From an uncultured Verrucomicrobiales bacterium (GTDB lineage: Bacteria > Verrucomicrobiota > Verrucomicrobiia > Verrucomicrobiales > Akkermansiaceae), in NCBI GenBank assembly GCA_937934595.1, contig CALGZA010000071.1, forward strand, positions 1 through 32,650: a DNA stretch of 32,650 nt, given 5' to 3'. Below, in pieces: positions 2,830 to 31,947 of this stretch; within the stretch, counting starts at the first letter, position 1; each line of letters begins with the position of its first letter. The position numbers and the translations under genes are program-made. The notes beneath the pieces are model-generated. The model ran no database searches and was not told the DNA's origin. It worked only from the letters and a program-made list of their open reading frames with translations.

Positions 2830-4758
2830 ATGAATAAAAATACCAGAATTATCAGCATTATAAGCCTTATAACTGCCGGCTCAATCTGCACATCGATTGC
2901 TCAGCGACCACCAGCAGCCCCCCAGCCAGCCAGAGACTCTAGGACTCACAGCCCCCAAGAAAACTCTGCATCCGTATTTGGCTCAGAAATCCCACAACTC
3001 GACTTCACGAACAAAACGTTCGAACACGGTGGCAAAACCCATAGCATGAGCGATAATCATATTGCTGGTCAATTCGAAGCCTATCTTTCAACAGACACAC
3101 TTTTAGAACAGGACGCTATAGAATACCGCAAAACCATCAGAGATATTCTCGACTTACTTGCTTATGATAAAACTGGAGGCTCCAAACTAAAATCCGCACA
3201 CAAGCTTTTAAGCAAAGCCGCCGAATACCCAGGAGATGCAAACATATGCGAATCACTCGCCAACGCAATCTTTTCAGCTCAACTTTCAAGCGAACACATC
3301 GGCAAAAGACGAGCACAAGCCAAAAAACTCAAAAAAGAACGTGCAAGACTCTACCGCAATCTCATGGTGCTTGGAGGTCACGAACAATTAAGTAAATCAG
3401 CTAAAGGGGCAAAGCCACAAGTAAGCGCTGAATCTAGCCATCTTAAAAAGAGTATAGCTGAAATCGAAGCGACACTCAAAGCCATAGAAATAAATGGCAT
3501 CATGGGACGTGTTCAATCTAAACTACACTTTCAATCGATGATTGTTCAGTTATTCGCTCAGCGCAGATTTCAGCACTGTATTATGGCTACTCGCTTTTAC
3601 ATGTTAATTTACAAAGATGGAGACGCCAAACTAGAACTTAAAAAGGGAGCTGACACAGAAAAAATCTTCTCTGAAACTCTGGGCGTCAACCCTACAATAA
3701 ACGGCATAGATGCGGCATCAGCAGAAATCATCAAAAAAGTAGAAACTCTAGTAAACTCATTTAACAACAATTTGAAAAAGAACAAAATCCATGCAGCATC
3801 AGAAAGGCTCATGGAAGCCTTCTTCATTGGAGAATTCCTTCCAGCACTTCACACTATCCCACTGAAAGACAAAGCTCCCATCCAGCAATATGTACAAGAC
3901 GCGAACGACTTGGTCAGAGTACTCGTAGCAAATGATCTAGAACGAGCTGAAACACTAAACCTTAGCCTTCAAAAACAAGCTTCAGATTATAACCCGTCAG
4001 AAGCGAAATCGTATATTGCAGGGAGAAAAAACGATTCAAAGTTCAACACTAGAGATGCTAAATTCGCCCTTCGCTTTATGATGAAAAGCAATAATGCAGA
4101 TGAAAGACGCACCGAGCAAGCCAGATTCAAAGCAGCCATGGCCCGAGCAGTCAAAGCATGGCCATCTAATCCAGAACTAGAATTACTCAATAAAGCAATT
4201 GATACGAAGTTCGATGAAGTGAGCATTTTAGACAATAAGCTCCTTGTAGCTCGAAAAGACTTTGACCGTTATGTCGAAACTAAATCTTGGGCAGCCGTCA
4301 TGAAAGATGAAAACCTCTCAAGATTCCTTGCCTCATTCCATTTGTCCACAGACATCGAAGACGTAGCTAGGGCTAACAAACTGAAACAAATCAAAGAGGA
4401 ATTTAGCTCTATGTTCGCTACTTTGAAAGAAGCTGAGACATACTACAAGAGAGGACATGTTCCAGCGGCTTGGGAGCTCGTTGACATTGCCATAAAAAAA
4501 CACAAAGACAGCATCGAGCTGGCTCAAGCTAAAGCACTGTATAGCGGTAAAGCTTCTAACTTCTCAAATACCATATCACAAGCTCAAGAACTCGAGAAGA
4601 AAGCACCCCAATCCGCTCACGCGCTGAGCTATTTCTTAAAGGCAGAAAAAATATACCCTAACAGCAAATACGCTAGAGAAGGAATTCAGCGTATTATTAG
4701 TGCCAAATTTAAACCTAACAGAGTAAACGCTGACCAAGAACTATCAGCGAACCACTAA
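2830..4758 (+). CDS. Secreted alpha-helical (TPR-like) protein, unknown function
   Basis: A 642-residue protein. I use the ATG at 2830, not the upstream one at 2740, because it places a good Sec signal peptide (hydrophobic residues about 6-24, SICTSIA before likely cleavage) at the N-terminus. A Pro/Ala-rich linker follows, then a long charged helical region with heptad-like, coiled-coil-prone parts (KRRAQAKKLKKERARLYRNL) and a C-terminal TPR-like stretch (ETYYKRGHVPAAWELVDIAI, ALSYFLKAEKIYPNSKYARE). It is probably a periplasmic or surface scaffold; no catalytic motif is seen. Its coding strand is A/C-rich, opposite to the G/T-rich + strand of the following 26 kb, suggesting inversion or acquisition. 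A mobile repeat copy begins at its stop codon. Confidence 0.75.
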   Translation: MNKNTRIISIISLITAGSICTSIAQRPPAAPQPARDSRTHSPQENSASVFGSEIPQLDFTNKTFEHGGKTHSMSDNHIAGQFEAYLSTDTLLEQDAIEYRKTIRDILDLLAYDKTGGSKLKSAHKLLSKAAEYPGDANICESLANAIFSAQLSSEHIGKRRAQAKKLKKERARLYRNLMVLGGHEQLSKSAKGAKPQVSAESSHLKKSIAEIEATLKAIEINGIMGRVQSKLHFQSMIVQLFAQRRFQHCIMATRFYMLIYKDGDAKLELKKGADTEKIFSETLGVNPTINGIDAASAEIIKKVETLVNSFNNNLKKNKIHAASERLMEAFFIGEFLPALHTIPLKDKAPIQQYVQDANDLVRVLVANDLERAETLNLSLQKQASDYNPSEAKSYIAGRKNDSKFNTRDAKFALRFMMKSNNADERRTEQARFKAAMARAVKAWPSNPELELLNKAIDTKFDEVSILDNKLLVARKDFDRYVETKSWAAVMKDENLSRFLASFHLSTDIEDVARANKLKQIKEEFSSMFATLKEAETYYKRGHVPAAWELVDIAIKKHKDSIELAQAKALYSGKASNFSNTISQAQELEKKAPQSAHALSYFLKAEKIYPNSKYAREGIQRIISAKFKPNRVNADQELSANH

Positions 4759-4964
4759 TACCATTTTCACAGTTATACTGGGTTGATAGTAGTTTCAATA
4801 TATTTGGAAACAGTAGCAGAGCTGATTTTTTGAAGTGCACAAGAATCTATCAAGATTAGCTTTGTTATTCATCAGTTGCAAAGTCCACTATGCGCTTTCC
4901 TCTTACCTTGTTACTCTTGCTATCTTGTTGTGCTATCAATTCTTTCTAACAGTTCAAATGGTAT
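4758..4964 (+). repeat. Dispersed TIR element, copy 1 (full length, 207 bp)
   Basis: This copy starts ATACCATTTTCACAGTTA and its right end, read on the other strand, is ATACCATTTGAACTGTTA: 15 of 18 positions agree, so the ends are terminal inverted repeats. The outermost TA on each side suggests a TA target, as in Tc1/mariner-IS630-like MITEs. It differs from copy 2 by scattered substitutions and one three-base gap. It begins one base inside the stop codon of the preceding gene. The element has no convincing gene. Confidence 0.75.
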
Positions 4965-5116: not shown

Positions 5117-8101
5117 TTATGGGTATGTTTTGTTGAGCTCTTCTGGGGTGAATGCTGTTTGGCGGTTTTTGAGTTGCAGTCTTATTTTTTTGATGGTGTC
5201 TGATTTGACTGGGCCTTTGTTGTTGTTCCAGGCATGGCGGATGAATGTAGCGACATCGGCGAGATGTTGGTCATTGATTTGTGGTGCGTCTTTGAGTCCT
5301 GGCATTGCTGCTGCTGGGTTGTATTTTTTGCCGTTGACGGTGATGGGACCGATGAGTCCTTGGAGGAGGATGGCGGTAAGTTTTTCTTCTGATTCGTTGA
5401 CCCATTCGGAGTTTACGAGTGGTGGGCCGAGGTGTTCTAGTCCGTTTCCGTCTGGGCCGTGGCAAGCCATGCAGTTGGCGATGTAGAATGTTTCGCCTTT
5501 ATGGTATGATGCTCTGTGTGTTTTGTTAGATGGGGGTTTGAAGCTGGCGGCTGTTGTTTTTGGTGTAAGTGTGTGTTTGAGGTATTGTTTGAATTTGCTG
5601 TCTTTGAAGTTGTGTCCGAGGAGGTCGGAGAATTCTTGTTCGCGTTTGTGAAGGCTACTGATGGTGGCTTCTCTGATGTATGGCAGGTTGATGTTTTTGG
5701 TGAGGATTTTTTTGAGTATTGTGAGTGATTGTTTTGATGGGATGTGTCCGAGGCTGGCCGCGAGCTGTCTCTGGACGATGCCGCTGGGGTGTTCTGTTAG
5801 TTTTTGTAGGTTTGGTAGTAGGGTTATTGCGTCTGCTGGGGGGAGGAGTGTGGTGAGACGGATGGCGGATTCTAGGACGTATGGGTGGGTGGATTTTAGG
5901 GCGGCGGTGATGGCGGTTGGGTTGATTTCGCCTAGTCCTTCGAGTGTCCAGAGTGCGTGGATTTGGCCTAGTGGTTTGTTGTGGTTAGCGGCTAGTGCGT
6001 TGAGTTCTGGGGTGGTGGATGTGTCACCTGAGTCGATGATGAGTTGTTGTGCGGTGTCTCTGTGCCAGCCGTTTGGGTGTGCAAGGTGGGGTATGAGTTG
6101 TGGTGCTTTTTTGCCAAGCATGGTGGGTATTTTTCCGCGTGGGTTGTCCTGGTGTTTGATTCTGTATATTCTGCCGTGTCGTGGGTGGCTTTCGAGGTTT
6201 CTGTGTTTGATGTGTTGGCGTAGGTATTTGGTGAGGTAGTGTTTGTGCTGGATGATTCCGTGGTACATGTCTGTGATGTAGAGAGTTCCGTCTGGAGCGT
6301 TGAAGATGTTGACTGGGCGGAATCTTTCGTCAGTGGATGCGAGGAATTCTTTTTCTCCGAGGAGGTGTTCGCCCGATGTGATGCCGTTTTTGCGGTTGAT
6401 GTGGACTAAGCGGATGAGGTTGGCTGCTGGTTCACAGAAGAGGGCTGTGTCTTGGTATTCTTTAGGGAATTGGTCACCGCGGTAAACGACTGGGCCAGCT
6501 GCGCCGGTGGCTGCTCTTAGGAATCCGTCTTTGTCGATGGCGCCTTCACCGCCGCGGTTTACGCCTGGGGTCATATTAGCTGGGAATAGTTTGTCTCTGT
6601 AGGAGATGTTTTTGGTGTGTTTTCTGTGGAGGAGGTAGTTAGGGTTTTGGCGCAGGGTGTTAGGGAGGAGTTGGTCAGCTTTGATTCCGAACCAGTTTTC
6701 GTTGAAGTAGAGGCGTCCGTAGTTGTCTTGGTTGATTCCCCATTGGCCGCGGAATGTGGTGGTTTGCTTGGTCCATTTTCCGTTGATTTCTCTGTAGCGG
6801 GTGTCTGATTTTGCGTTATAGATCCAGTTGTCTAGTGCTCGGAATAGTCCGTTAGTGCGGTGTTCTACGTTTGCGTTTTGGGTGTAGTTTTCGTCGATGA
6901 GTGTCATTTTTCCTGCTTTGCCGTTGTTGTTTTCGACGAAGTAGAGTTTTTGGTGTCCGCCGTAGAGGATGCCGTTTTTGTAGAGTGCGATGGAGCGTGG
7001 CTGGTTGAGGTTGTCTAGGAATACGGAGGTTTTGTCGTAGAATCCGTCGTTGTTAGTGTCTTCGTGAATAGAGATTCGGCCGATGGGTTTGTCTTCGCCT
7101 GTTCCGTTGGCATCTGGCATGTAGGCGCGCATTTCGACGACCCACATTTTTCCGTCACCGTCGAATTGGAGTGCGAGTGGGTTCTGGACCATGGGCTCGT
7201 GGGTGACGGGTTTTATATTGAAGTCTTGGTGGAGTTGGAAGGATTTGAGCGCGGTTTTGGGGTCGAGTGCGGGTGATGGGGGGATTTTATCGAATGGGAC
7301 GACATAGGTGTAGCCTTTTTTCTTTGGTTTGTTTGGTTTAGGAACTTGTGGATCTAGGTTGAGGCGTTTGATCCAGACGTTACGGAATTTGACTTTGTTT
7401 TTGTGTCCTTGGAATTTGATGGGGAGTGGGTTAGGGCCTTCTTTTTTTCCTGCTCCTGTTTTGTTAGTGAGTTCGTAGTCGTTGTGGATGAGGATGCCGT
7501 TGTGTTTGACGCTAATTCTGGCGTTGGCTATTTTTTTGTTTCCGTTGAATCTGGCTGCCCGGAATGCGATGTCATATGTTTGCCATTGGCCTGCGGGTTT
7601 GGAGACGAGTTGGTCAGGTTTTTTTTGGCGGTAAAGGCTTCCTGCGTAGCTGGCTGTGTAGTCTTCTGGGGTTATTCCGTGTGAGTTGAGGATTTGTAGT
7701 TCATAGCGTTGTTGGATGTAGATTCCTGAGTTGCCATTTTGTTCTGGTGTGGCTCCTGGGACGTTGTTGACGTTGAATTCTACGTGCATTCTGAAGTCAT
7801 TGTATGTATTTGGGGTGATGAGGCTGTCCCAGAGTGGTGATGCGGTGAGGATGCTGTCTTTGAAGGTCCAGTTGTTTTTAAATTTTTTGTTTTCTGGAAT
7901 GAGGATGTGGCCTCTTTTACCGACGAGCTGGATGGCATCGTGGCTGCGTTTAAGGTTGAGTGCTTTTTTTGTTAGGCCGGCTGCTGATTGATCTAGTTCA
8001 GCGGCTTTGGTGCTGGCTGTTAGGGTGGTGCTAAATGATATTGCTACACAAATTGTAGCTGATTTTAGCCATTTTTTAGGTGTGTGAAGTAAGGTTTTCA
8101 T
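5117..8101 (-). CDS. Secreted DUF1080 / PVC-type dehydrogenase / HEAT / cytochrome c fusion
   Basis: A 994-residue exported protein: signal peptide about 1-33, DUF1080 (3-keto-disaccharide hydrolase, concanavalin-like) about 58-247 (NGNSGIYIQQRYELQILNS core), PVC-type membrane-bound dehydrogenase beta-propeller about 293-650 (QFDGDGKMWVVEMRAY, GGEGAIDKDGF), HEAT-like helices about 660-850, and a C-terminal cytochrome c domain with the haem site CMACH at 877-881 and a likely distal ligand Met933. The family is thought to oxidise sugars in the periplasm and pass electrons to a c-type cytochrome, and DUF1080 members cleave 3-keto-glycosides. Carrying hydrolase, dehydrogenase and haem in one chain would couple these steps. 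It is monocistronic. The exact substrate is unknown. Confidence 0.88.
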   Translation of the reverse strand: MKTLLHTPKKWLKSATICVAISFSTTLTASTKAAELDQSAAGLTKKALNLKRSHDAIQLVGKRGHILIPENKKFKNNWTFKDSILTASPLWDSLITPNTYNDFRMHVEFNVNNVPGATPEQNGNSGIYIQQRYELQILNSHGITPEDYTASYAGSLYRQKKPDQLVSKPAGQWQTYDIAFRAARFNGNKKIANARISVKHNGILIHNDYELTNKTGAGKKEGPNPLPIKFQGHKNKVKFRNVWIKRLNLDPQVPKPNKPKKKGYTYVVPFDKIPPSPALDPKTALKSFQLHQDFNIKPVTHEPMVQNPLALQFDGDGKMWVVEMRAYMPDANGTGEDKPIGRISIHEDTNNDGFYDKTSVFLDNLNQPRSIALYKNGILYGGHQKLYFVENNNGKAGKMTLIDENYTQNANVEHRTNGLFRALDNWIYNAKSDTRYREINGKWTKQTTTFRGQWGINQDNYGRLYFNENWFGIKADQLLPNTLRQNPNYLLHRKHTKNISYRDKLFPANMTPGVNRGGEGAIDKDGFLRAATGAAGPVVYRGDQFPKEYQDTALFCEPAANLIRLVHINRKNGITSGEHLLGEKEFLASTDERFRPVNIFNAPDGTLYITDMYHGIIQHKHYLTKYLRQHIKHRNLESHPRHGRIYRIKHQDNPRGKIPTMLGKKAPQLIPHLAHPNGWHRDTAQQLIIDSGDTSTTPELNALAANHNKPLGQIHALWTLEGLGEINPTAITAALKSTHPYVLESAIRLTTLLPPADAITLLPNLQKLTEHPSGIVQRQLAASLGHIPSKQSLTILKKILTKNINLPYIREATISSLHKREQEFSDLLGHNFKDSKFKQYLKHTLTPKTTAASFKPPSNKTHRASYHKGETFYIANCMACHGPDGNGLEHLGPPLVNSEWVNESEEKLTAILLQGLIGPITVNGKKYNPAAAMPGLKDAPQINDQHLADVATFIRHAWNNNKGPVKSDTIKKIRLQLKNRQTAFTPEELNKTYP

Positions 8102-8490: not shown

Positions 8491-9090
8491 TTAATCCTGT
8501 TTGAATCTGAGAAATCTCCTATGAGGAATAGGGTTTAGGGTAGGCTTGATATCGTTAGGAGAGAATATGACTAAAGTATGGCCTGTCCAGTGGGACATAA
8601 ATTTTTTTCTAGTCATGTTGAGTGAGCCAATGGATGGGTCTAGCACGTTTATTAAATCTTTATTGATAGAATTAACGATGACAAAATGGTAGCTAGAATC
8701 TTTAAGCTTTAATCTAGCGATCATGTAGAGTTGGTTTAGTTCTTGAAGTTCGCTGATTTGTTCTAGTTTGTAACCTTTAGATTCTATACCGAAAGACATT
8801 AAAGCTTGCTGGAGTTCTGCCATAGAGAAGCCTGTTCTATCATCTTTTAATTTAGGAAAGTGAGTTAATACTTCATTGTAGGTAACATTTTTATTACTAC
8901 TTTGTATGATTTCATGTACACAGACAACTCCGCACACGCGTATATCGTCTTGTTTGGCAATATTATTGAATTTCATCTCTTGCCAAGATGACAAGGTATC
9001 ATTTTGATGAGAGCATGAGGTGTCTAACAAAAATATAATAGAGGCCAGAACGATACAGCTCACTGATTTAATATCAAAACTCAATAACAT
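8491..9090 (-). CDS. C39-like (double-glycine) papain-fold peptidase, exported; FapD-like
   Basis: A 199-residue protein with an N-terminal hydrophobic segment (about 9-22) that should export or anchor it. The papain-like C39 residues are all present: oxyanion Gln47, nucleophile Cys53 in VCGVVCV, six residues later as usual, His135 in YHFVIVN and Asp151 in NVLDPSIG. It lacks the ABC transporter membrane and ATPase domains of bacteriocin exporters, so it is a stand-alone peptidase, like FapD of the Pseudomonas Fap amyloid system. Cys26 follows DTS, a poor lipobox, so lipidation is doubtful. Its start overlaps the barrel gene by 17 bases. The likely substrate is the peptide encoded at the head of this cluster. 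Confidence 0.75.
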   Translation of the reverse strand: MLLSFDIKSVSCIVLASIIFLLDTSCSHQNDTLSSWQEMKFNNIAKQDDIRVCGVVCVHEIIQSSNKNVTYNEVLTHFPKLKDDRTGFSMAELQQALMSFGIESKGYKLEQISELQELNQLYMIARLKLKDSSYHFVIVNSINKDLINVLDPSIGSLNMTRKKFMSHWTGHTLVIFSPNDIKPTLNPIPHRRFLRFKQD

Positions 9091-9811
9091 ATGTCAGCCT
9101 AGCTTGGAATTCCTCACGATCACCTCCAAAAGAAAGCGATGGCCTAAAGAGCATGTAGTGACTATCTTTTACTTCAATGCCGATGGGAAGTGATAGCCTT
9201 GAGTCAAGGCTTCTGAGGTCATCTCTTTTTCCTAAATAAGTTTCAATGCCTAGACTTATTTCTCCGTTAACTTGGAAGGCATATCCTGCAAATGCTCCAT
9301 ATTGTAATCTATTTTTTACATCCCGTATTGTCGCTCCGTAGTAGAATACTACGGGGGGAATAATGTGTGAATTTTGTATTGATAGGCCCCAGCCCAACCC
9401 AAATTTATCCGAGTATGTCACGCCTGGAGAAAGTGTTATTCTGGTTTTTTCTGGACGAATATTAACGCCCAAAGACATTGATGAGATACTTTGGTTATTC
9501 AAAGTATTTTGTGTTGATCGCGAGTAACTTTTTATCCAGCTTTGGGAGATGGTTGACTCTAGCTCTAGCCAGCTTTTGAGGCCGTAGTTCATTGCTAATG
9601 TTCCTGTGTAGCTTTGGGTGTCCACTCCATTTTCTAGGGAAGCTTGTTCAAAACCAAAGGAGCTAGCGAGGTCTAACTTTTTGACTCCTAGTAAGAAAGC
9701 GTCATCGACTATTCTCTCAACTGAATAGGAGCTATTATCGGAGGTTTCCGCGTCTAAGACAGGTGAACAGGCGCAGAGAAGTACAATAATTTTTGCATAC
9801 ATGTATTTCAT
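9074..9811 (-). CDS. Outer-membrane beta-barrel protein, FapF / Phenol_MetA_deg-like
   Basis: A 245-residue protein: Sec signal peptide (about 1-21, VLDA before cleavage), a short N-terminal segment (VERIVDDAFLLGVKKLDLAS), then alternating amphipathic strands typical of a 10-12-strand barrel (SYTGTLAMNYGLKSWLELES, ITLSPGVTYSDKFGLGWGLS, LQYGAFAGYAFQVNGEISLG), ending in aromatic Phe (TYVIEF), the usual outer-membrane insertion signal. The pattern resembles the barrel class that includes FapF, the pore exporting Fap amyloid subunits, but it is much shorter and lacks an evident coiled-coil domain. It lies between a secreted peptide gene and a C39-like peptidase gene, so a peptide secretion pore is the best guess. 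A generic porin is the alternative. Confidence 0.72.
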   Translation of the reverse strand: MKYMYAKIIVLLCACSPVLDAETSDNSSYSVERIVDDAFLLGVKKLDLASSFGFEQASLENGVDTQSYTGTLAMNYGLKSWLELESTISQSWIKSYSRSTQNTLNNQSISSMSLGVNIRPEKTRITLSPGVTYSDKFGLGWGLSIQNSHIIPPVVFYYGATIRDVKNRLQYGAFAGYAFQVNGEISLGIETYLGKRDDLRSLDSRLSLPIGIEVKDSHYMLFRPSLSFGGDREEFQARLTYVIEF

Positions 9812-20972: not shown

Positions 20973-21117
20973 TATGCTACCATGATAATGATTCAGATAG
21001 GATTAGATGTTTTTTGGCTTTTTGGGATAGTGGTTTTTGTGTAAGAGTTTGGTTGTTGTGAGTTTTATATCAGTGTTCAGGATTAGTGTATGTGGTAGAA
21101 AGTTGGCAGGGGTGTTT

Positions 21118-24100
21118 ATGGTGCGCCGCCATGGTGGATTTGCGTTGATTTCTTGTTTGTTGGTTATGAGTTTATTGATGGTTGTGAGTGTGGGGTTACT
21201 TCGTTTTTCAGTAGTTGAGAGTGGTGGATTATCATCTGCTAGTCATGTTGTTAAGGCGCGGGCGAATGCTCGAGTTGCTTTGGTGATGGCATTGTCTCAG
21301 TTGCAGAGTTATGCGGGTAGGGATGAGGTGGTGACTGGGAGGGCTGATATGTTAGCTGATAGGCTGAGGGTATCTCATAGGAACTGGGTAGGAGCGTGGG
21401 GGACGGTGCGTAGGCAGAGTGGTGGTGAGATGGAGTGGCCATTGATAGGTAAGAAGACTATTGATGGGAATGGGGTTTATGCTGATGCGTATGGTTATAG
21501 CGATTTGAGGTATACTGATGAGGGGTTGAGTGATGGGAAGTGGCGGCGTGAGTTACACAGGGGTTGGTTGGTAAGTGGTTCTAATGTAATGGGTGATGTT
21601 TCTGAGGATTTGGATGTTGGGGGTGAGGGGGTGCTGGAGATATTAGGTAGGGGTGCTTTGGGGGCGGGTGTGAGTGAGGATGCGTATTTGTTAGGGCGTG
21701 TTTTGGTGAAGAAGCTTAGTCTAGGTGATGGTTCTGGTATAGCGTGGTGGACGTTTGATAATCATTTAAAGGCTGGGATTAAGTCTAGCCGGCTTGAGGT
21801 GTCTGATCATGAAGTGGCGCGAAGTGTGAGCCCGAATCTGAGTCATGTTGGGGAGGGTGGTGATTATTCTTTAAGGGGTTTTCAGGAGAATTTGTTAGAG
21901 AAAGAGGAAAAGGTTATTTCTATGGGGAGTGGTTTTTTGGCTCAGGAGGATGCGGTGTATGCACGGGTGGCATTTGGGAGGTATGTTCATGATTTGACTG
22001 ATTATTCTCCGGGGATGTTTATTGATACGGCGCGAGGTGGATTTCAGCGCGATCTTACTCCGCTTTTGTTTGGGAAGAAGGGTGAGAGGCGTATTGAATT
22101 TGAAGTTCCATATAAGGGTATGTCTGATGATGCTTTTACGTCTGAGCATCCGATAGTGTGTGGTATTCATCATGATGTGTTAGGGCCGACATTTTCTGCG
22201 TTGAGGTACTGGGGTTTACAGAAGTATATGGTGGGAGGTGAGTTTGATACTGTTTTAGATATAAGTGCGGGGCGGCATAGTCCGGGAGCTGGCTGGCCGC
22301 ATGGGGTTAGTGATGGGTTTACGTATGATGCTGCTAGATGGTCTGATGAGGTGCCGAAGCGTCATCCTGTGATGACGGATACGCGCTGGCATTATTATTT
22401 TTCTATTCATGGTGATAAGATTAGGACGCATATTATTCCGAGGGTATGTCTATGGAATCCGTATAATAGGGATATGGTGATGAGAGATATGATAGCGTTG
22501 ATGCCGAATCCTTTTTATAGGTCTGGTGGAGGGGTTCATTTTTATTTTGATGATGATGAGGTTGAGCGTTTAAGGGGCCTAGCGAGCGATGGTGGGGATG
22601 TGGTGCATCGCTGGGTTAAGAAGTCAGCGAATCCTCTTGGGGATAAGTATAAGGCGCGGTTGAAGGTCTCTGGAGAAAGTGGGTTATTTGTTGGTAGTCG
22701 GTATTTGGCTTTTACGCTGAAGGGGGTGAAGTTAGGTGCTGGTGAGTGTCATGTGTTTTCGCCCAGTATTGATAGTGGGAGTGTGAGTGGTGGAGATGTG
22801 AAACTGGCGCGTTATGAGGAGGAGGAGATTTCTAAGAATGTTTTGCGCTCGGACTCGAGGCAGGGTGGGGATCATTTTTATTATGATATGGGGTCTAGTG
22901 ATTTTGAGGTTCAGACGTCATCTGGTTGGCGTTTATTGAGTGGTGATACTAGGGCGAAGTTGGATTTGGGGGCGATTCATGATTACAGGTTAGAGACTGG
23001 GAGATTGGTTGAGAATTTTCCATTTATTTTAAAGTCGTCACGTGGGGAGATACCTTTGCTGAGTGTGCTAATGGCATCTGAGGAACATCCTACTTTGCAG
23101 TTGATTAATAATGGTTTGGGAGGCGTTTCTCCGGCTTATTATTTTGGTTATTCTGGTGCGTCTTGGGGCAGTGCGAATACGGTAGGTAGTTTTGGTTCTA
23201 TGCAGCGGTTTGTAGATGCACCAGGAAAGGATGCGCCGGCGACGCATCAGGTAGGTGCAAAGCTTTTATGGTTAGATGAGTCAACGACTGAGGGTAATAA
23301 GGCGCCTTTGCGTTATGGGACGACACGTAAGACGCGATGGGGATCTGAGCATATGGTTTATCATCCTGCGGTTATAGCGAACTGGAATGTGAGGTCACAG
23401 CTTACGAGTAGGTCACCTGCGTCTCAGTGTGGGAAGGCGTGGTATTTGTTTAGTGCTGGGCCGTGGATGTTACAATTTGTTCCGAAGAGTCCGCAGGATG
23501 CTAATGATAGTCCTCAATTGAATGCTACAGGTAGTGCGTTTATTAAGCATCCGTTTGGTTTGGCGGTTGATCATGCTGTTTCTCCGGAGGTGGTTTTGTT
23601 TGATATGCCGGATAGTGATTTTGGGATTCATTCTATGGCTACTTTGCGTCATGTGATGATGAGTCCATATTCATGGCATCCGAGTTATGTGGTGGGGCAT
23701 TCATTAAGGGATCTTCATGCTCCGAGTTATTCTACGGTGCATGCGGGTGTGGTAGCGGGTTTGGGTGAGGCTGGAGGTGGTCACAATCATTGGGATTTGG
23801 CTATAGGTGGGTATAGGTCTGGTTTTAGTTATGGTGCGGCTAATGCTGAGAATGATTCAGATGGGTTGTTGCAGTTAGGTGGCATGGAAACGACGCGGCA
23901 TGTGGGTATGCGATTGTTAAGGTCAGGTGATGATATATTGCCGTATGATATTGCTTATGAAGTGAATGAGAGCTTGTGGAATGGGTATTTTATTTCATCT
24001 TTACCGGTTTCTGGGGATGGTGAGGGTTTTTCATCTGCTAGTCCGGAGAATCAGCGATATGTGATGCAGGTGAATGAGGATGTGACGAGAGAGGTTATAG

Positions 24101-25059
24101 AGAGTCATTTATTGGATGGTGATGATGCTTTTGCCAATGGGTTTTGGATGAATGGATATTTTTACAAGAGGAAGGGAGCTTTTAATGTGAACTCGACCTC
24201 TGAGGTGGCGTGGAGTGCGTTTTTGTCATCGACTGTGGGAGTGAAGAGGGAGTTGCGGGATGGGTCTACAATGGAGGGTAGAGAGGGTAGTTTTTCAAGG
24301 TTTAGTAGGCCTGAAGGGTTGGCTTTATCGAGGGATTTGGAGCCGAGGGGTGAGGGTGCTTGGCAAGGATTACGGGTTTTAGATGGGGAGGAGATTAGAA
24401 GGTTAGCGTCTGCGATAGTGGATGAGGTGAAGCTGCGTGGTCCGTTTATTTCTTTATCTGATTTTGTGAATAGGAGGTTAACAGTGAGGGATGATGAGAC
24501 GTCTGAGATGGGTGCTTTAGATGCGGCTATTTATAAGGCTGGTTTGAATCAGGTATTTTACGATGATGATAGGTATAATACGAGTTTGATAGATCGAGGT
24601 AGTGATCCTTTATCTGCGGATAATAATCATCGTCTCTTTCGTGATGCGTATCTTTATTCTGATGGTGGCCAAGTTAAGAGTAGTCAGGCGGTAACGAAGA
24701 CGTGGGGTTTACCTAGTTTTTTGATGCAGTCTGATTTGCTTGAGCCGTTGGCGCCATCGATGACTGTGCGAGGAGATACTTTTACGATTAGGGCATATGG
24801 GGAATCTAGTGAGAATGGGCGTGTGGTGGCGAGGGCTTTTCTTGAGGCAGTGGTGGAGCGAAGTCCTCATTATATGAATCATCAGTCGGTTACGGATGAG
24901 AGTGAGAGAGAGTTTTACAATAAACCTACTGATATGGCACTGGATATATGTCCATTGACAGGTACTATAAAGGAGGGGGATTTAAGTGGTGTGAATAAGG
25001 TTTTTGGAAGGAGATATAGGGTAAAGTCTTTCCGATGGCTCAACGAAAATGAAGTTTAA
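21118..25059 (+). CDS. Verru_Chthon cassette protein A (pseudopilin-like N-terminus)
   Basis: A 1313-residue protein of the Verru_Chthon cassette A family, found almost only in Verrucomicrobiota. I choose the ATG at 21118 over an earlier in-frame one at 21037 because AGGGG lies six bases upstream and the protein then opens MVRRHGGFALISCLLVMSLL, a prepilin-type GF cleavage site and hydrophobic helix. The family hallmark ANARVALVMALSQLQSYAGR follows at about residues 50-69. The rest is a large extracytoplasmic region without recognised catalytic motifs. Cassette members B, C and D are also pilin-like; none is adjacent here. It likely assembles at a type II secretion/type IV pilus-like machine, by inference from the N-terminus. 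Confidence 0.85.
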   Translation: MVRRHGGFALISCLLVMSLLMVVSVGLLRFSVVESGGLSSASHVVKARANARVALVMALSQLQSYAGRDEVVTGRADMLADRLRVSHRNWVGAWGTVRRQSGGEMEWPLIGKKTIDGNGVYADAYGYSDLRYTDEGLSDGKWRRELHRGWLVSGSNVMGDVSEDLDVGGEGVLEILGRGALGAGVSEDAYLLGRVLVKKLSLGDGSGIAWWTFDNHLKAGIKSSRLEVSDHEVARSVSPNLSHVGEGGDYSLRGFQENLLEKEEKVISMGSGFLAQEDAVYARVAFGRYVHDLTDYSPGMFIDTARGGFQRDLTPLLFGKKGERRIEFEVPYKGMSDDAFTSEHPIVCGIHHDVLGPTFSALRYWGLQKYMVGGEFDTVLDISAGRHSPGAGWPHGVSDGFTYDAARWSDEVPKRHPVMTDTRWHYYFSIHGDKIRTHIIPRVCLWNPYNRDMVMRDMIALMPNPFYRSGGGVHFYFDDDEVERLRGLASDGGDVVHRWVKKSANPLGDKYKARLKVSGESGLFVGSRYLAFTLKGVKLGAGECHVFSPSIDSGSVSGGDVKLARYEEEEISKNVLRSDSRQGGDHFYYDMGSSDFEVQTSSGWRLLSGDTRAKLDLGAIHDYRLETGRLVENFPFILKSSRGEIPLLSVLMASEEHPTLQLINNGLGGVSPAYYFGYSGASWGSANTVGSFGSMQRFVDAPGKDAPATHQVGAKLLWLDESTTEGNKAPLRYGTTRKTRWGSEHMVYHPAVIANWNVRSQLTSRSPASQCGKAWYLFSAGPWMLQFVPKSPQDANDSPQLNATGSAFIKHPFGLAVDHAVSPEVVLFDMPDSDFGIHSMATLRHVMMSPYSWHPSYVVGHSLRDLHAPSYSTVHAGVVAGLGEAGGGHNHWDLAIGGYRSGFSYGAANAENDSDGLLQLGGMETTRHVGMRLLRSGDDILPYDIAYEVNESLWNGYFISSLPVSGDGEGFSSASPENQRYVMQVNEDVTREVIESHLLDGDDAFANGFWMNGYFYKRKGAFNVNSTSEVAWSAFLSSTVGVKRELRDGSTMEGREGSFSRFSRPEGLALSRDLEPRGEGAWQGLRVLDGEEIRRLASAIVDEVKLRGPFISLSDFVNRRLTVRDDETSEMGALDAAIYKAGLNQVFYDDDRYNTSLIDRGSDPLSADNNHRLFRDAYLYSDGGQVKSSQAVTKTWGLPSFLMQSDLLEPLAPSMTVRGDTFTIRAYGESSENGRVVARAFLEAVVERSPHYMNHQSVTDESEREFYNKPTDMALDICPLTGTIKEGDLSGVNKVFGRRYRVKSFRWLNENEV

Positions 25060-25077: not shown

Positions 25078-25896
25078 ATGATATATGGTAGTGTGAAGTA
25101 TGTTTTTATGTTTCTTTTTGGTGTGATGTTGTTGCGGGCGGAAACGGAGAGAAGTGGAGGTGGGGCTAAGCCTGCTAGGCTTGCTATTTTGGCATTGGGA
25201 GCCAAGCCTACGCGGAGTTATGTGAGGTCTGTGGAGTCTGGGAAAGACTCTGCGAGTGTGATGTTGGCTCCCAAGGTAGGAGTGATACCACCGCGGGTAT
25301 TGTATATAAATGCGGGTGATGATGAGGGTGATGCGTCTAGGATTCATTTAGCGTTCAATAATCCTCCACAGTATGTGGATGTTAGGTCTGGTCGTGAGCT
25401 TGTATTGTGGCGGAGGGGCGTGCTTGCACATAGTGAGAAGGTTGAATATTTACGAATAGCACCTTTGAAACCAGGTTCGTTTCACCTGTTGATTCTACGG
25501 GCTGGAGGACGAGGAGATGAGCGTTGGCTTGAGGAGCCGAGGAAGTCTATGTTGGATTTAGGAGGAGGTGATTTACTGAAGAAGAAGTTTGGGGTTTGGA
25601 ACTTGAGTAAGAGGAGTATAAAGAGCATTTATCATGAGGATTCTGTAATGATGAAGCCTGGATCGTTTATGTCTTATGATGCGTTGGCTGGTGTTCATTT
25701 ACACCGTGTCTCTGCCGCTTATGCAAAGTCTAAGAAACGGATTTATACGACAGCCTATAAGTTTCACAGGAGAAGAGATTTATTACTACATCTGCTGTAT
25801 GATGCGAATCCGCATACTAATGACAGGAGGACTGTCGGGTTGTTTACAATGAGTGTACGTCCGCGGATAGGTAAGGATGTGTCTGGTGGTGAGTGA
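25078..25896 (+). CDS. Secreted protein in operon with Verru_Chthon protein A
   Basis: A 272-residue protein with a signal peptide (about 1-21, FGVMLLRA before cleavage). It begins 18 bases after the stop of the cassette A gene and has a strong GAGGAGG ribosome site about 10 bases upstream, so it is translated from the same transcript. The mature part is basic, with beta-type segments (VLYINAGDDEG, YVDVRSGRELVLWRRG, FHLLILRAGGRG) and a conserved-looking C-terminus. I do not recognise a family. Functional dependence on the upstream gene is likely from spacing alone. Confidence 0.7.
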   Translation: MIYGSVKYVFMFLFGVMLLRAETERSGGGAKPARLAILALGAKPTRSYVRSVESGKDSASVMLAPKVGVIPPRVLYINAGDDEGDASRIHLAFNNPPQYVDVRSGRELVLWRRGVLAHSEKVEYLRIAPLKPGSFHLLILRAGGRGDERWLEEPRKSMLDLGGGDLLKKKFGVWNLSKRSIKSIYHEDSVMMKPGSFMSYDALAGVHLHRVSAAYAKSKKRIYTTAYKFHRRRDLLLHLLYDANPHTNDRRTVGLFTMSVRPRIGKDVSGGE

Positions 25897-25985
25897 GTAG
25901 CGGTGTGGTCAATCTGCTTGTAAAAAGATAGTTTCGATGTAGACTGTTAATTACTACTTTGGTGGCAACCTAATTATATAAAGCT

Positions 25986-27488
25986 ATGAAGATTACATTA
26001 CTATTTTACTCAATATTTTTACCGGTGATTACGATGATGTTGTCTGGGCAGACAGCTATGAAGGTTGATATGAAAGATGTTACTGACCACATTGACATGG
26101 ATGGGCAGTTTTTTATGGCTAACAATGTAGAGGGTGATTTAGAAAAGCTGGCTGCGTTAGGAACTGATTTTCTTAAGAATGCTAGAAAACATGGTAAGAA
26201 GAGGTTTCCTACGGGGCTGGACTTGAAGCTTATACTGGGTGATATGGGGCTGAATGATCTTGTATCGTATGGAAGGAGTGCGAAGTTTGCGGGAGATCAC
26301 TGGGTTAGTAAATTGTATTTGCAGAACCAAGGTAGTAATCGGGGCGTGTTTTCTATGATGGGTGAGAAGAATACAGAGTATGAGGTACTCAAGTTTGCGC
26401 CATCTGGTGCTGATTTTGTCATGGAGTGGCAGATAGATACTAGGCAGTTAGGTGCGGTGATGAAGCATGTGCCAGGATGTGTTCGTATGGAGAAGGCTAT
26501 GAAGCGAAATCTAACAGGAGGAGAGACCGTGGAAGACGTTTTGAATATGTATAAAGGTAAGGTGAGTCTGGCGGTTAAACTGGATGATAAGGTCAGAGAA
26601 GCTTGTCCGATCTATCCAGAGTATACTTTTCCGAAGTTGCATGGGTGTTTGAGATTGAAGGGGGTGACTCCGATCTGGAAGCATCTTGGTGCAGTGGCTG
26701 GTTTTATGATGAAGATGGTAAGGCAGGAGGATGGAACTCTATTAATGATACCACGCAAGCAGCCTAAGAAGATGAATGCTGCGTTTGTTTTAGATATGAA
26801 GAATGATGTATTGTGGGCTGGGACAAGTATTGAATTTTTGAATGAGTGCAGGGGTCGTAAGGCTGGTCTGTCAGTTGATAAGGGTTACAAGGCGTTATCT
26901 GGAGGTTCTAGAGATGGGTGTGGAGTAGTTTATATTTCTAAGCAGGCTTGTATGGAGCTGAGGCAGGTAAAGGAAGCGAAGTATAAGAAACGTGGCAAGA
27001 GCTGTCTGTCTGAGGAGATGAGGAAGAGGGTGTTGGATCATTTAACGGAATCTGAGAATGGCTATTACGCTGAGGTGCGGAAGAGTGAAAAGGGTATCAA
27101 TGTTTTGTTGAAAGCGCCGTGCCCAGTGAAAGAGATACTGTGTTTTAAGCGATGTGGTAAGAGGTATGGAAAGAAGTGCTGTTCAGCAGGTAAGGGAAAG
27201 TGCTGCTCACGTAGTAAATGCGGTGAATTAAAGAAACAATGCGGATCATGTGAGCGTAAGAAGCAAAGAGGTTGTCCATTAGGTGGCGGTTCAAAAAAGC
27301 AAAACGCTCTGTGTAATGATGGGTGTGTTAGTGGTTGTAAGAGTGGGAAGTGTTCAAAGGGAAAGAGGAAGTCTAATGGTGGCTGCGCAAGTAAATGTGG
27401 TAAAAGCGTTCCTAAGTCAGACGCTAAGGCATTAAAAGATGCTAAGAGGCTTGATCACACAGATGGTGGTGACCAGGGAGATATGTAA
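25986..27488 (+). CDS. Secreted protein with a 17-cysteine, lysine-rich C-terminal tail
   Basis: A 500-residue exported protein, signal peptide about 1-20 (MMLSGQT). Residues 25-375 form a mixed alpha/beta region without a recognised family (FMANNVEGDLEKLAALGTDF, DFVMEWQIDTRQLGAVMKHV). Residues 379-471 hold 17 cysteines in 93 positions, including two CC pairs and CxxC-type spacings, among many lysines and glycines (KKCCSAGKGKCCSRSKCG, CVSGCKSGKC). The tail ends in a charged Lys/Asp segment. Such density suggests a disulfide-rich surface domain or metal binding; it is not a standard metallothionein or EGF pattern. It stands 89 bases after the previous gene and probably has its own promoter. 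Confidence 0.7.
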   Translation: MKITLLFYSIFLPVITMMLSGQTAMKVDMKDVTDHIDMDGQFFMANNVEGDLEKLAALGTDFLKNARKHGKKRFPTGLDLKLILGDMGLNDLVSYGRSAKFAGDHWVSKLYLQNQGSNRGVFSMMGEKNTEYEVLKFAPSGADFVMEWQIDTRQLGAVMKHVPGCVRMEKAMKRNLTGGETVEDVLNMYKGKVSLAVKLDDKVREACPIYPEYTFPKLHGCLRLKGVTPIWKHLGAVAGFMMKMVRQEDGTLLMIPRKQPKKMNAAFVLDMKNDVLWAGTSIEFLNECRGRKAGLSVDKGYKALSGGSRDGCGVVYISKQACMELRQVKEAKYKKRGKSCLSEEMRKRVLDHLTESENGYYAEVRKSEKGINVLLKAPCPVKEILCFKRCGKRYGKKCCSAGKGKCCSRSKCGELKKQCGSCERKKQRGCPLGGGSKKQNALCNDGCVSGCKSGKCSKGKRKSNGGCASKCGKSVPKSDAKALKDAKRLDHTDGGDQGDM

Positions 27489-28805: not shown

Positions 28806-28871
28806 TAGGCGGTGGTTTGGTGTTCATTTTATTTTGAACGTTATGGGGATTTGGGTTACATACTTATTAAG

Positions 28872-29381
28872 ATGTCAGGTGCAGATGATAAAGAGATGGA
28901 TTTCAGGGTTGGCGACGCTGATGTGAATGTTGAGCTTGAGGCTATGGTGAGGGAGTTTTTTGCGGATACGGTGCGGGTTTTGGGTTTGCCTAGGAGTGTG
29001 GGTGAGATATATGGCTCGTTGTTTATTAGTAGGGAGCCTTTGGCGCTGGATGATCTGGTTGATTTATTGGGGATAAGTAAGGGGAGTGGGAGTCAGGGGC
29101 TGAAGATGTTACGGACTCTAGGAGCTGTTAGTGAGGTATCAGGTATTGAGGGGAGGAAGATTTTTTATGAGGCTGATGTTGAGTTAAAGAGCTTGGTAGG
29201 TGGATTTATCCGTGAGGAGGTAAGACCGCATTTGCGGAGTGCTAGGGTGAAGATAGGTCATATGGATGCGTGTAATGAGGGTGGGGATGTTCACTATGAT
29301 GAGCGGATAAAGAAGTTGAATAATTGGCGTAAGCGGGCTGGGGTGATGTTGCCGATTTTACAGAAGTTACTGGGTAAGTAG
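28872..29381 (+). CDS. GbsR/MarR-type winged-helix transcriptional regulator
   Basis: A 169-residue DNA-binding protein. I choose the ATG at 28872 (MSGADDKEMDF); an upstream in-frame ATG at 28812 lies next to repeat copy 4 and would add an unlikely hydrophobic extension. The winged helix is about residues 40-110: LGLPRSVGEIYGSLFISREP, LALDDLVDLLGISKGSGSQG and LKMLRTLGAVSEVSGIEGRK match the GbsR family. The C-terminal helices probably dimerise. Its stop codon abuts the NusG-paralogue start with no gap, so the two are coupled and head an exopolysaccharide locus, which they probably regulate. The ligand, if any, is unknown. Confidence 0.82.
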   Translation: MSGADDKEMDFRVGDADVNVELEAMVREFFADTVRVLGLPRSVGEIYGSLFISREPLALDDLVDLLGISKGSGSQGLKMLRTLGAVSEVSGIEGRKIFYEADVELKSLVGGFIREEVRPHLRSARVKIGHMDACNEGGDVHYDERIKKLNNWRKRAGVMLPILQKLLGK

Positions 29382-29909
29382 ATGGTTGAGGATACTAAAG
29401 AGAGGTGGTATGTAGTGCGTTCACAGACGAAGCGTGAGCAGGCGGCAGCAGGTTATGTGCGAAGGGAGCTGGGGCTGGAGGTGGTGGCGCCGCAGATCCG
29501 TTATACTAAAGTAACGCGGAGGGGGAAGGTGTTGTGGAGGGAGGCGATGTTTCCTGGGTATTTGTTTGTTAAGTTTGATAGGGAGGTGGATGAGAAGGCT
29601 GTGTGTTATGCGCCTGGAGTCTTGAAGGTGTTACGGTTTGGTGACTATGTGCCAGATATTGAGGCGAGTTTTGTTTTGGGTCTTAGTGACTTGGTGGGTG
29701 ATGAGGGGGTGTTAGATTTAGCGCATAGTGTGGAGCTAGGGCAGGAGTGCGAGATGGCTGATGGGGCTTTCAAGGGGAGCGTGGGTGAGGTTGTGGAGGT
29801 TTTACCTGGTGGTGAGAGGGTTTTGCTTTTGATGGAGATGATTGGTGGTGAACGATTGGTGGAGGTGGATATTTTTTCACTGCTGCTGCCGAAGCCGGGT
29901 GGGATTTAG
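29382..29909 (+). CDS. NusG paralogue (RfaH/UpxY-like antitermination factor)
   Basis: A 175-residue protein with an NGN domain at about 9-105 (RWYVVRSQTKREQAAAGYVR, VLWREAMFPGYLFVKF) and a KOW-type domain at about 120-172 (GAFKGSVGEVVEVLPGGERV). It differs from housekeeping NusG in context: it follows a regulator gene directly and precedes sugar-nucleotide genes, as RfaH-, UpxY- and LoaP-type specialised paralogues do in polysaccharide or secondary-metabolite operons. It should bind RNA polymerase and keep it processive through the long downstream operon. An ops-like 12-mer in the next leader supports this. The final Ile and stop codon lie within a heptamer repeat. Confidence 0.88.
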   Translation: MVEDTKERWYVVRSQTKREQAAAGYVRRELGLEVVAPQIRYTKVTRRGKVLWREAMFPGYLFVKFDREVDEKAVCYAPGVLKVLRFGDYVPDIEASFVLGLSDLVGDEGVLDLAHSVELGQECEMADGAFKGSVGEVVEVLPGGERVLLLMEMIGGERLVEVDIFSLLLPKPGGI

Positions 29910-30096: not shown

Positions 30097-30125
30097 TCTA
30101 GGGTGCGTGACAAATTTTATTGATT

Positions 30126-31511
30126 ATGATAGAGGTAAAGAAGATATGTTGTATTGGGGCTGGATATGTAGGTGGTCCTACGATGGCGATGATAGCGGCA
30201 AAGTGTCCGGATATTGAGGTCACTGTGGTGGACATCAATGCGGAGCGGGTGGCGGCTTGGAATTCTGATGAGTTGCCGGTGTATGAGCCTGGTTTGTATG
30301 AGGTGGTGAAGTCGGCACGAGGACGGAATTTATTTTTCTCTACGGATGTTGATGGTGCGATAGTGGATGCTGATGTTATTTTTGTATCTGTAGGAACACC
30401 GACTAAGACGTATGGAATGGGTGCGGGGAAGGCTGCTGATTTATGTTATGTAGAGGGGGCTGCGCGGATGATTGCGAAGGTGTCAAAGGGTTCTAAGATT
30501 ATTGTTGAGAAGAGCACGATACCTGTGCGGACTGCGCAGGCATTGAAGACGATATTGGAGGCTAATTCTGAGGAGGGCAGGTTTCAGGTGTTATCAAATC
30601 CTGAGTTTTTGGCTGAGGGGACTGCGGTGGAGGATTTGACTCATCCGGATAGGATACTGATAGGTGGTAGTCCTTCTGAGCGTGGTCAGGCGGCAGTTGA
30701 GGCGTTGGCTAGTGTTTATAGGAGGTGGATACCTGATGAGCGAATCATAAGGACGAATTTGTGGTCATCTGAGTTGTCGAAGTTGGTGGCGAATGCGTTT
30801 TTGGCGCAGCGAATTTCTTCTATCAATTCTATATCTGCGTTGTGTGAGAAGACGGAGGCGGATGTGGATGAGGTTGCGAATGCGATAGGGATGGATTCTA
30901 GGATAGGGCCTAAGTTTTTGAAGGCTTCAGTGGGATTTGGCGGTTCATGCTTTCAGAAGGATCTGCTGAATTTGGTCTATTTGAGTGGTCATTTTGGGTT
31001 ACCTGAGGTGGCGAATTATTGGCAGGCGGTGATTGATATGAATGAGTGGCAGAGGTCACGTTTTTCTGCGAAGATAGTGGAGTCGTTGTTTAATACGGTG
31101 AGGGGTAAGAAGGTTGCGATTTGGGGTTTTGCTTTTAAGAAGGATACGAATGATACGCGTGAGTCAGCGGCGATATATGTATGCCGTGATTTGATCATGG
31201 AGGGTGCAAATGTGGCGATATATGATCCCAAGGTGAGTAAGGAGCAGGTCTTTACTGATTTAGAGTACTTGGGAATGGAACGAGATATGTTAGAGAGACA
31301 AATAACGTATTGTGGTTCATGCGAAGAGGCAGCGATGGATGCGCATGGAGTGGCTATCCTGACTGAGTGGGATGAGTTTAAGTCTGTGGATTTCAAGATT
31401 GTGTATGAGCATATGTTTAAGCCTGCGTTTATGTTTGATGGGAGGAATTTGATTGATGCTCAACAGGTCAGAGAGATTGGGTTTGATTTTTATTCGATAG
31501 GAAAGGGGTGA
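30126..31511 (+). CDS. ugd: UDP-glucose 6-dehydrogenase
   Basis: A 461-residue cytosolic enzyme that oxidises UDP-glucose to UDP-glucuronate with two NAD+. The ATG at 30126 is preferred to an in-frame TTG two codons earlier. The N-terminal Rossmann motif GAGYVGG, the VGTPTK and [10 protein letters not shown] segments, [11 protein letters not shown], and the active-site Cys275 in [10 protein letters not shown] are all present, with a C-terminal UDP-binding domain ([14 protein letters not shown]). The length is nearer the animal and plant enzyme than the shorter bacterial form. Its product feeds the UDP-glucuronate decarboxylase encoded downstream, giving UDP-xylose for exopolysaccharide. It may be controlled by the upstream NusG paralogue. 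Confidence 0.95.
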
Positions 31512-31576
31512 TTTTGGGAGTTTTGGAGTTTTGGAGTTTTGGAGTTTTGGAGTTTTGGAGTTTTGGAGTTTTGGAG
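31512..31576 (+). repeat. GGAGTTTT tandem array 2 (seven perfect 8-bp units)
   Basis: A nine-base variant unit followed by seven identical TTTTGGAG octamers, starting immediately after the ugd stop codon. The last unit places GGAG five bases before the start of the four-helix-bundle gene, where it serves as the Shine-Dalgarno sequence. Confidence 0.9.
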
Positions 31577-31581
31577 TACTT

Positions 31582-31947
31582 ATGAAAATTGAGAAGTTTG
31601 AGGATATTATAGCTTGGAAGAAGGCTAGGGTAGTTACAGCAAAGATTTATAAAACTACCTGCCAATCACCTTTTAATAGGGATTACGGTCTTACAGATCA
31701 AATCCGACGAGCTTCGAGCTCAATCATGCATAATATAGCCGAAGGCTTTGATGCAGGCAGCACGGCTGAGTTCATACGCTTTCTACGTTATAGCTATCGC
31801 TCAGCTGGCGAAGTGCAAAGTCAATTGTATGTGGCCTTGGATGTAGAATATATATCTCAACAAGATTTCAAACAATTTTATGAAGACTCAGCAGAAATAA
31901 AGAAACTAATCTCAGGCTTCATAAAGTACCTCCTTACTAAAAAATAA
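31582..31947 (+). CDS. Four-helix-bundle protein (S23 / 23S rRNA IVS family)
   Basis: A 121-residue protein of the S23/IVS four-helix-bundle family: FEDIIAWKKARVV, FNRDYGLTDQIRRASSSIMH, NIAEGF and FLRYSYRSAGEVQSQLYVAL are the family's conserved blocks. The start follows the last octamer of tandem array 2, whose GGAG is the ribosome site. Family members form pentamers and are often encoded in rRNA intervening sequences or scattered through genomes; related Avd proteins work with diversity-generating retroelements, but no reverse transcriptase is nearby. Base composition (A/C-rich) differs from ugd and uxs on either side, so it interrupts the polysaccharide operon as a probable insertion. A fragment of a sister copy lies at 28.6 kb. 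Confidence 0.88.
   Translation: MKIEKFEDIIAWKKARVVTAKIYKTTCQSPFNRDYGLTDQIRRASSSIMHNIAEGFDAGSTAEFIRFLRYSYRSAGEVQSQLYVALDVEYISQQDFKQFYEDSAEIKKLISGFIKYLLTKK

Follow-up and report, generated by a model that had tools for sequence, protein, structure and literature searches.

Metallothioneins carry clustered CC, CxC and CxxC motifs, and bacterial members of the SmtA type combine a high share of cysteines with few aromatic residues. In Chlamydiae, which belong to the same superphylum as Verrucomicrobiota, cysteine-rich envelope proteins are thought to be cross-linked by disulfides. A passage of PMC2811131 places the cysteine-rich OmcA and OmcB in the chlamydial outer membrane complex, and includes DsbA-like proteins among the predicted outer membrane proteins. 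Csp1 is described in excerpts of PMC7558416 as an exported, cysteine-rich copper storage protein, which forms a four-helix bundle and bears a Tat signal.

The window (the whole stretch of 32,650 nucleotides analysed here, from a 3.15-Mb genome split into 123 contigs, with a completeness of 95.9%) contains a gene for a 500-aa protein which is probably exported by the Sec route, as far as its N-terminus indicates. The gene has the following features:

25918 to 25945, + strand: possible own promoter (tentative), TTGTAA, 16 nt, TAGACT
25986 to 27488, + strand: whole gene, ATG start, 500 aa, probably exported protein with Cys-rich tail
25986 to 26048, + strand: apparent Sec signal peptide, residues 1-21, recognized by eye (ASAQ/ATAQ in orthologues)
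26058 to 27134, + strand: head domain, residues 25-383, distant DUF3352 relative (alignment, head HMM)
26604 to 26606, + strand: codon of Cys207, a Cys in the four tail-clade rows covering the column and in no other of 43
26646 to 26648, + strand: codon of Cys221, a Cys in the four tail-clade rows covering the column, plus L035
26847 to 26849, + strand: codon of Cys288, common to many paralogues
26949 to 26951, + strand: codon of Cys322, common to some paralogues
27120 to 27122, + strand: codon of Cys379 (in KAPCP), a Cys in the four tail-clade rows covering the column and in no other row
27135 to 27485, + strand: Cys/Lys/Gly-rich tail, residues 384-500, 16 Cys, pI 9.7, ending in QGDM

The likeness to SmtA-type metallothioneins, i.e. 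the high share of cysteines and the few aromatic residues, applies to the tail and not to the whole 500 aa. Unlike them, the window protein is probably exported, and its tail, with 0-1 His in each of the tails known, extends a head some 360 residues long; moreover, the tails have no family match, are not enriched in CC, CxC or CxxC, and their metal binding is a prediction. With Csp1 the protein shares probable export and cysteine-richness, but to the eye its signal is of the Sec rather than the Tat type, and the tail has neither a confidently predicted fold nor a Csp match in Pfam. OmcA and OmcB resemble it by description, as cysteine-rich envelope proteins.

The initial annotation had described a secreted protein with 17 cysteines in its last 120 residues. 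A recount agrees on 17 at residues 379-471 (379, 386, 390, 398, 399, 406, 407, 412, 419, 422, 430, 443, 447, 451, 456, 467 and 471), including the two CC pairs, while the last 120 residues contain 16. The odd number that had been remarked upon is correct within residues 379-471, but the whole protein has 24 cysteines, an even number, so the oddness is set by where the count begins. The region ahead of the tail had been called cysteine-poor; it is not cysteine-free, as seven cysteines (165, 207, 221, 288, 312, 322 and 340) precede residue 379. The cluster at 379-471 is not a matter of chance, since elsewhere in the window, over all six frames, stop-free stretches of 93 codons contain at most 9 cysteines. 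Secretion is made plausible, on inspection by eye, by the signal-like N-terminus and by ASAQ or ATAQ near the expected cleavage site in orthologues.

An orthologue was found in five genomes of a 12-genome genus sample that includes the window's own; the others are G004 (locus L004), G002 (L006), G001 (L010, without its 5' end) and G008 (L005, broken off by the contig end at residue 343, ahead of the tail). These four are 48-57% identical to the window protein, and the heads of the orthologues have 51-79% mutual identity. In the other seven genomes this search gave distant paralogues or, for G007, nothing. Each of the four orthologues that retain their 3' end has the tail in frame, which rules out an artefact and disposes of the frameshift origin that the initial annotation had considered; the tail-less homologues which it expected to speak against the tail are paralogues of 16-25% identity. 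Nor is the tail a fresh product of repeat slippage, because no DNA tandem repeat was found in the window's gene and both Cys codons are in use (exact repeats in the DNA of the tails reach 9 bases in the window, 15 in L004 and 10 in L006). Of 387 genomes sampled from the phylum, four had matches (E up to 1e-20), and the match extended into the tail only in the window's own genome. No relative was found among viral contigs.

As had been proposed as a check, the homologues were compared for tail variation, and the tail indeed varies in length (79-152 aa) and in number of cysteines (13-22), with 16 Cys in 117 aa in the window, 22 in 152 in L004, 13 in 79 in L006 and 14 in 119 in L010. The share of cysteines nevertheless lies at 11.8-16.5% in the four tails, versus 4.6% in the next-highest end among 62 related ORFs (those with at least 50 aa beyond the head and a stop codon; 58 are without a Cys tail). 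All four tails are Lys/Gly/Ser-rich, of low complexity and net positive charge (pI 8.9-9.7), poor in hydrophobic and aromatic residues, and have GDM (three tails) or TDM (one tail) at the C-terminus. Their alignment contains seven invariant Cys columns, and five of the six tail pairs score above shuffled tails (z 4.0-12.5), the pair of the window and G002 being no better than shuffles (z -0.5). The tail is thus most simply explained as one homologous module, whose length and number of cysteines would change fast while its cysteine-richness is kept.

None of the motifs CC, CxC and CxxC is enriched in any of the four tails (5000 shuffles); CC in the L004 tail is below the shuffle expectation, and Cx3C has an upward tendency only (P about 0.05 in two tails). 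The earlier statement that the spacing fits no known family holds for Pfam and NCBIfam. The whole window protein has no match in Pfam, and a Pfam search of the four tails at E up to 10 gave one weak match to DUF7659 and none to metallothionein families.

The tail might instead be a disordered basic linker or bind polyanions, its cysteines being tolerated rather than used. The low complexity, the Lys/Gly/Ser-richness and the overall spacing, which is not conserved, would suit this reading; it is, however, quite improbable in view of the cysteine share of about 12-17% in all four tails as opposed to at most 4.6% in the other 58 ends, and of the general cost of free thiols outside the cell. Furthermore, the extra head cysteines 207, 221 and 379 accompany the tail (see the list above), which argues that the cysteines are used. 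A disulfide between Cys288 and Cys322 was also considered and dropped, as Cys288 is often present without Cys322.

When aligned, 43 relatives share a conserved head, beyond which their ends differ widely. Many genus paralogues end shortly after the head. In other relatives a hydrophobic stretch comes next, and then a region weakly resembling type IV pilins/T2SSG, with weak T2SSG and PilE1 matches. These Verrucomicrobiales proteins with a pilin-like end belong to the same head family, and the Cys tail takes the place of their end here; the family shows one head equipped with quite different ends. In six relatives (L012, L028, L058, L059, L062 and L122; last 109-124 aa) the head leads into a hydrophobic stretch and an end with a motif resembling CPxGGxYT, loosely so in some, along with more cysteines; this looks as if an exported head carried an internal pilin-like domain.

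Of the known families, DUF3352 (PF11832) comes closest to the head. The own-genome paralogue L002 matches the C-terminal part of PF11832 with 23.7 bits (E 2.2e-05), while the window protein has no match and 9 of the 43 family members match at E up to 1. As the best score is below the Pfam cut-off of 26.8 bits, the head is related to DUF3352 and is no member by the rule of Pfam. Judged by these profile matches, it is a Verrucomicrobiales family distantly related to DUF3352, a domain on which no paper was found in the literature.

In a wider search of the order, 251 of 386 genomes matched, many of them through the pilin-like end of the profile alone; 38 further stretches, mostly with matches stronger than about 1e-25, were picked by hand among the matches listed. 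In the resulting survey of 87 head-matching ORFs (E up to 1e-5, duplicates and contained sequences removed; some fragments, contig-end pieces and doubtful weak matches included), Cys-rich tails were confined to one clade. In a tree of 72 of these heads, from which L010 was omitted as a fragment, the tail-bearing heads (L001, L004, L006 and L005) form a single clade with support of 100/100 and a long stem; L005 is labelled Cys-tailed by its head alone, as its tail lies beyond the contig end, and for L048, L102 and L125 an overlong domain or a contig end puts the 'no tail' label in doubt. The branch joining this clade to the tail-less paralogues of the genus is weak (84/48).

Whether the cysteines form disulfides depends on the redox setting. 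The DsbA family, sought by the single model PF01323, and the DsbB family (PF02600) matched none of the 12 genus genomes, whereas 8 and 6 of 14 control genomes, respectively, gave matches; in this the genus differs from the Chlamydiae with their predicted DsbA-like outer membrane proteins (see above). VKOR (PF07884) was found in two genus genomes, G004 and G002 (3 of 14 controls), i.e. in 2 of the 5 orthologue-bearing genomes versus 0 of the 7 others. Both VKOR genomes bear the tail, and disulfides may therefore form there. The window's own genome, 95.9% complete, has no match to any of the three models, which together with the missing DsbA and DsbB matches makes enzyme-made disulfides less likely here.

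According to a passage of PMC5403849, an even number of cysteines in an exported protein points to dependence on Dsb. Among 13 tail-less paralogues of the genus, nine have cysteines, six of them in odd number, and this count did not change after cysteines of the signal peptide were set aside by eye. As this lack of an even-number bias agrees with the Dsb and VKOR results, the making of disulfides by known enzymes in the window's organism seems doubtful.

These observations bear directly on the main rival explanation, according to which the tail serves disulfide cross-linking or is an adhesive tether: a basic Lys/Gly-rich chain would lie on anionic surface polymers, and oxidised thiols would lock protein molecules to one another or to the envelope. 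The positive charge of all four tails is in keeping with it, as are the head cysteines that accompany the tail, the whole-protein numbers of cysteines, even in two of the three full-length orthologues (24 and 30, versus 19 in L006), the tails in both VKOR-bearing genomes and the precedent of OmcA and OmcB. It is opposed by the unmatched DsbA and DsbB models, the VKOR not found in the window's own genome and the tail-less paralogues without even bias. We regard this explanation as possible, if on the unlikely side.

In the window, L004 and L005 the start is preceded, at a distance of 57-68 bases, by a TTGTAA box, and one can also be seen by eye upstream of L006; MAFFT did not align the window's TTGTAA with the other copies, and the window's box is absent from the list given by a consensus scan. 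Terminator-like hairpins were seen by eye past the stop in L004, L006 and L010, and the terminator scan found none past the stop of the window gene. The pair of genes upstream (21037-25059 and 25078-25896, both +) also precedes L005 (L005:14-4009 and 4009-4872), but not L004 or L006. The differing neighbours and the possible own promoter fit, without proving it, a gene that may be its own transcription unit.

The first gene of this pair codes for a large protein that weakly matches GspK and Verru_Chthon_A; the second codes for a 272-aa protein with no family match but with matches, some weak, in 10 of 12 genus genomes (E up to 0.001). Elsewhere in the window there are a PVC-type heme-binding CxxCH protein (5117-8101, -; TIGR02604, above cut-off) and, at 8491-9090 and 9074-9811 (-), a peptidase with C39/FapD-like NCBIfam matches far below the cut-offs and an overlapping gene without match. 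At 28812-29909 and 30120-31511 (+) lie, in succession, a regulator (CudC-like, below cut-off), an RfaH/LoaP/UpxY-like NusG relative and a nucleotide sugar dehydrogenase; with these genes a surface polysaccharide cluster may begin. They are followed by a four-helix-bundle/23S rRNA intervening-sequence protein (31531-31947, +; PF05635, above cut-off), whose listed ORF begins with the repeated peptide EFWSFGVL. The GC skew is positive nearly throughout the window from about 4000, reaching 0.57.

The neighbours are also relevant to the suggestion of the initial annotation that the tail could be a processed peptide, that is, the core of a modified peptide cleaved after export. The Cys/Gly-rich make-up and the common C-terminal GDM or TDM would suit such a product, but the large head is itself conserved, the orthologues are differently flanked, with no maturation enzyme shared, and a tail profile (E up to 0.1) found only the four known genes and no tail-only gene in the 12 genus genomes. 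The suggestion thus received no support, and we consider it very improbable. A search of the genus with the single tail sequence gave two weak matches, both discarded: one is interrupted by three stops, and the other, a 163-aa frame, shares its strand with a 1070-aa ORF that it overlaps.

Two AlphaFold2 runs with four rows each had mean pLDDT of 39.6 and 47.3, and in the sole model covering the tail, the tail is under 50 with no confident fold. With the second, low-confidence model (mean pLDDT 47.3), Foldseek found nothing at an E of 0.001 or better, and searching the PDB by sequence gave no useful match.

Based on these observations, we suggest, with a probability of roughly 45%, that the protein is an exported carrier with a thiolate metal-binding tail. 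It would leave the cytoplasm by the Sec route, with the flexible basic tail sitting on the conserved DUF3352-like head, which would act as carrier or anchor. The tail cysteines would stay reduced as thiolates and bind soft metal ions, e.g. Cu(I), Zn or Cd, so that the protein might soak up or buffer metal much as a metallothionein does, within the periplasm or on the cell surface. Of the three functions guessed in the initial annotation, metal binding is the most probable and cross-linking is possible.

Metal binding is favoured by the cysteine share kept in all four tails despite their varying length, by the seven invariant Cys columns in a tail poor in hydrophobic and aromatic residues, by the restriction of the tail to heads of one clade in a genus without DsbA or DsbB matches, and by the precedent of Csp1 as outlined in PMC7558416. 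On the other hand, it is weakened by the unenriched CC, CxC and CxxC motifs and the missing metallothionein family match, by VKOR in two tail-bearing genomes, by the tails of the window and G002, which align like shuffles, and by the fact that no metal-linked neighbour gene common to the orthologues was found.

Literature searches joining Rubritalea with cysteine-rich found nothing; those on Verrucomicrobia and metallothionein and on Rubritalea and secretion gave, among the matches listed, titles on other subjects and none on Rubritalea, respectively, and a search on bacterial metallothionein, periplasm, secreted and cysteine-rich gave general reviews only, judging by title.

More broadly, and tentatively, we hypothesize that one clade of Verrucomicrobiota might possess an extracytoplasmic metal sponge, i.e. 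a metallothionein-like tail on an exported carrier, with its thiols kept reduced where the usual disulfide-making enzymes are lacking. If the thiols are reduced, the phylum, for which the literature searches showed no such protein among the titles listed, would have an exported binder of metals that relies on thiols and matches neither the metallothionein nor the Csp families. It also poses the question of how a genus without recognisable DsbA or DsbB manages two dozen cysteines outside the cytoplasm.
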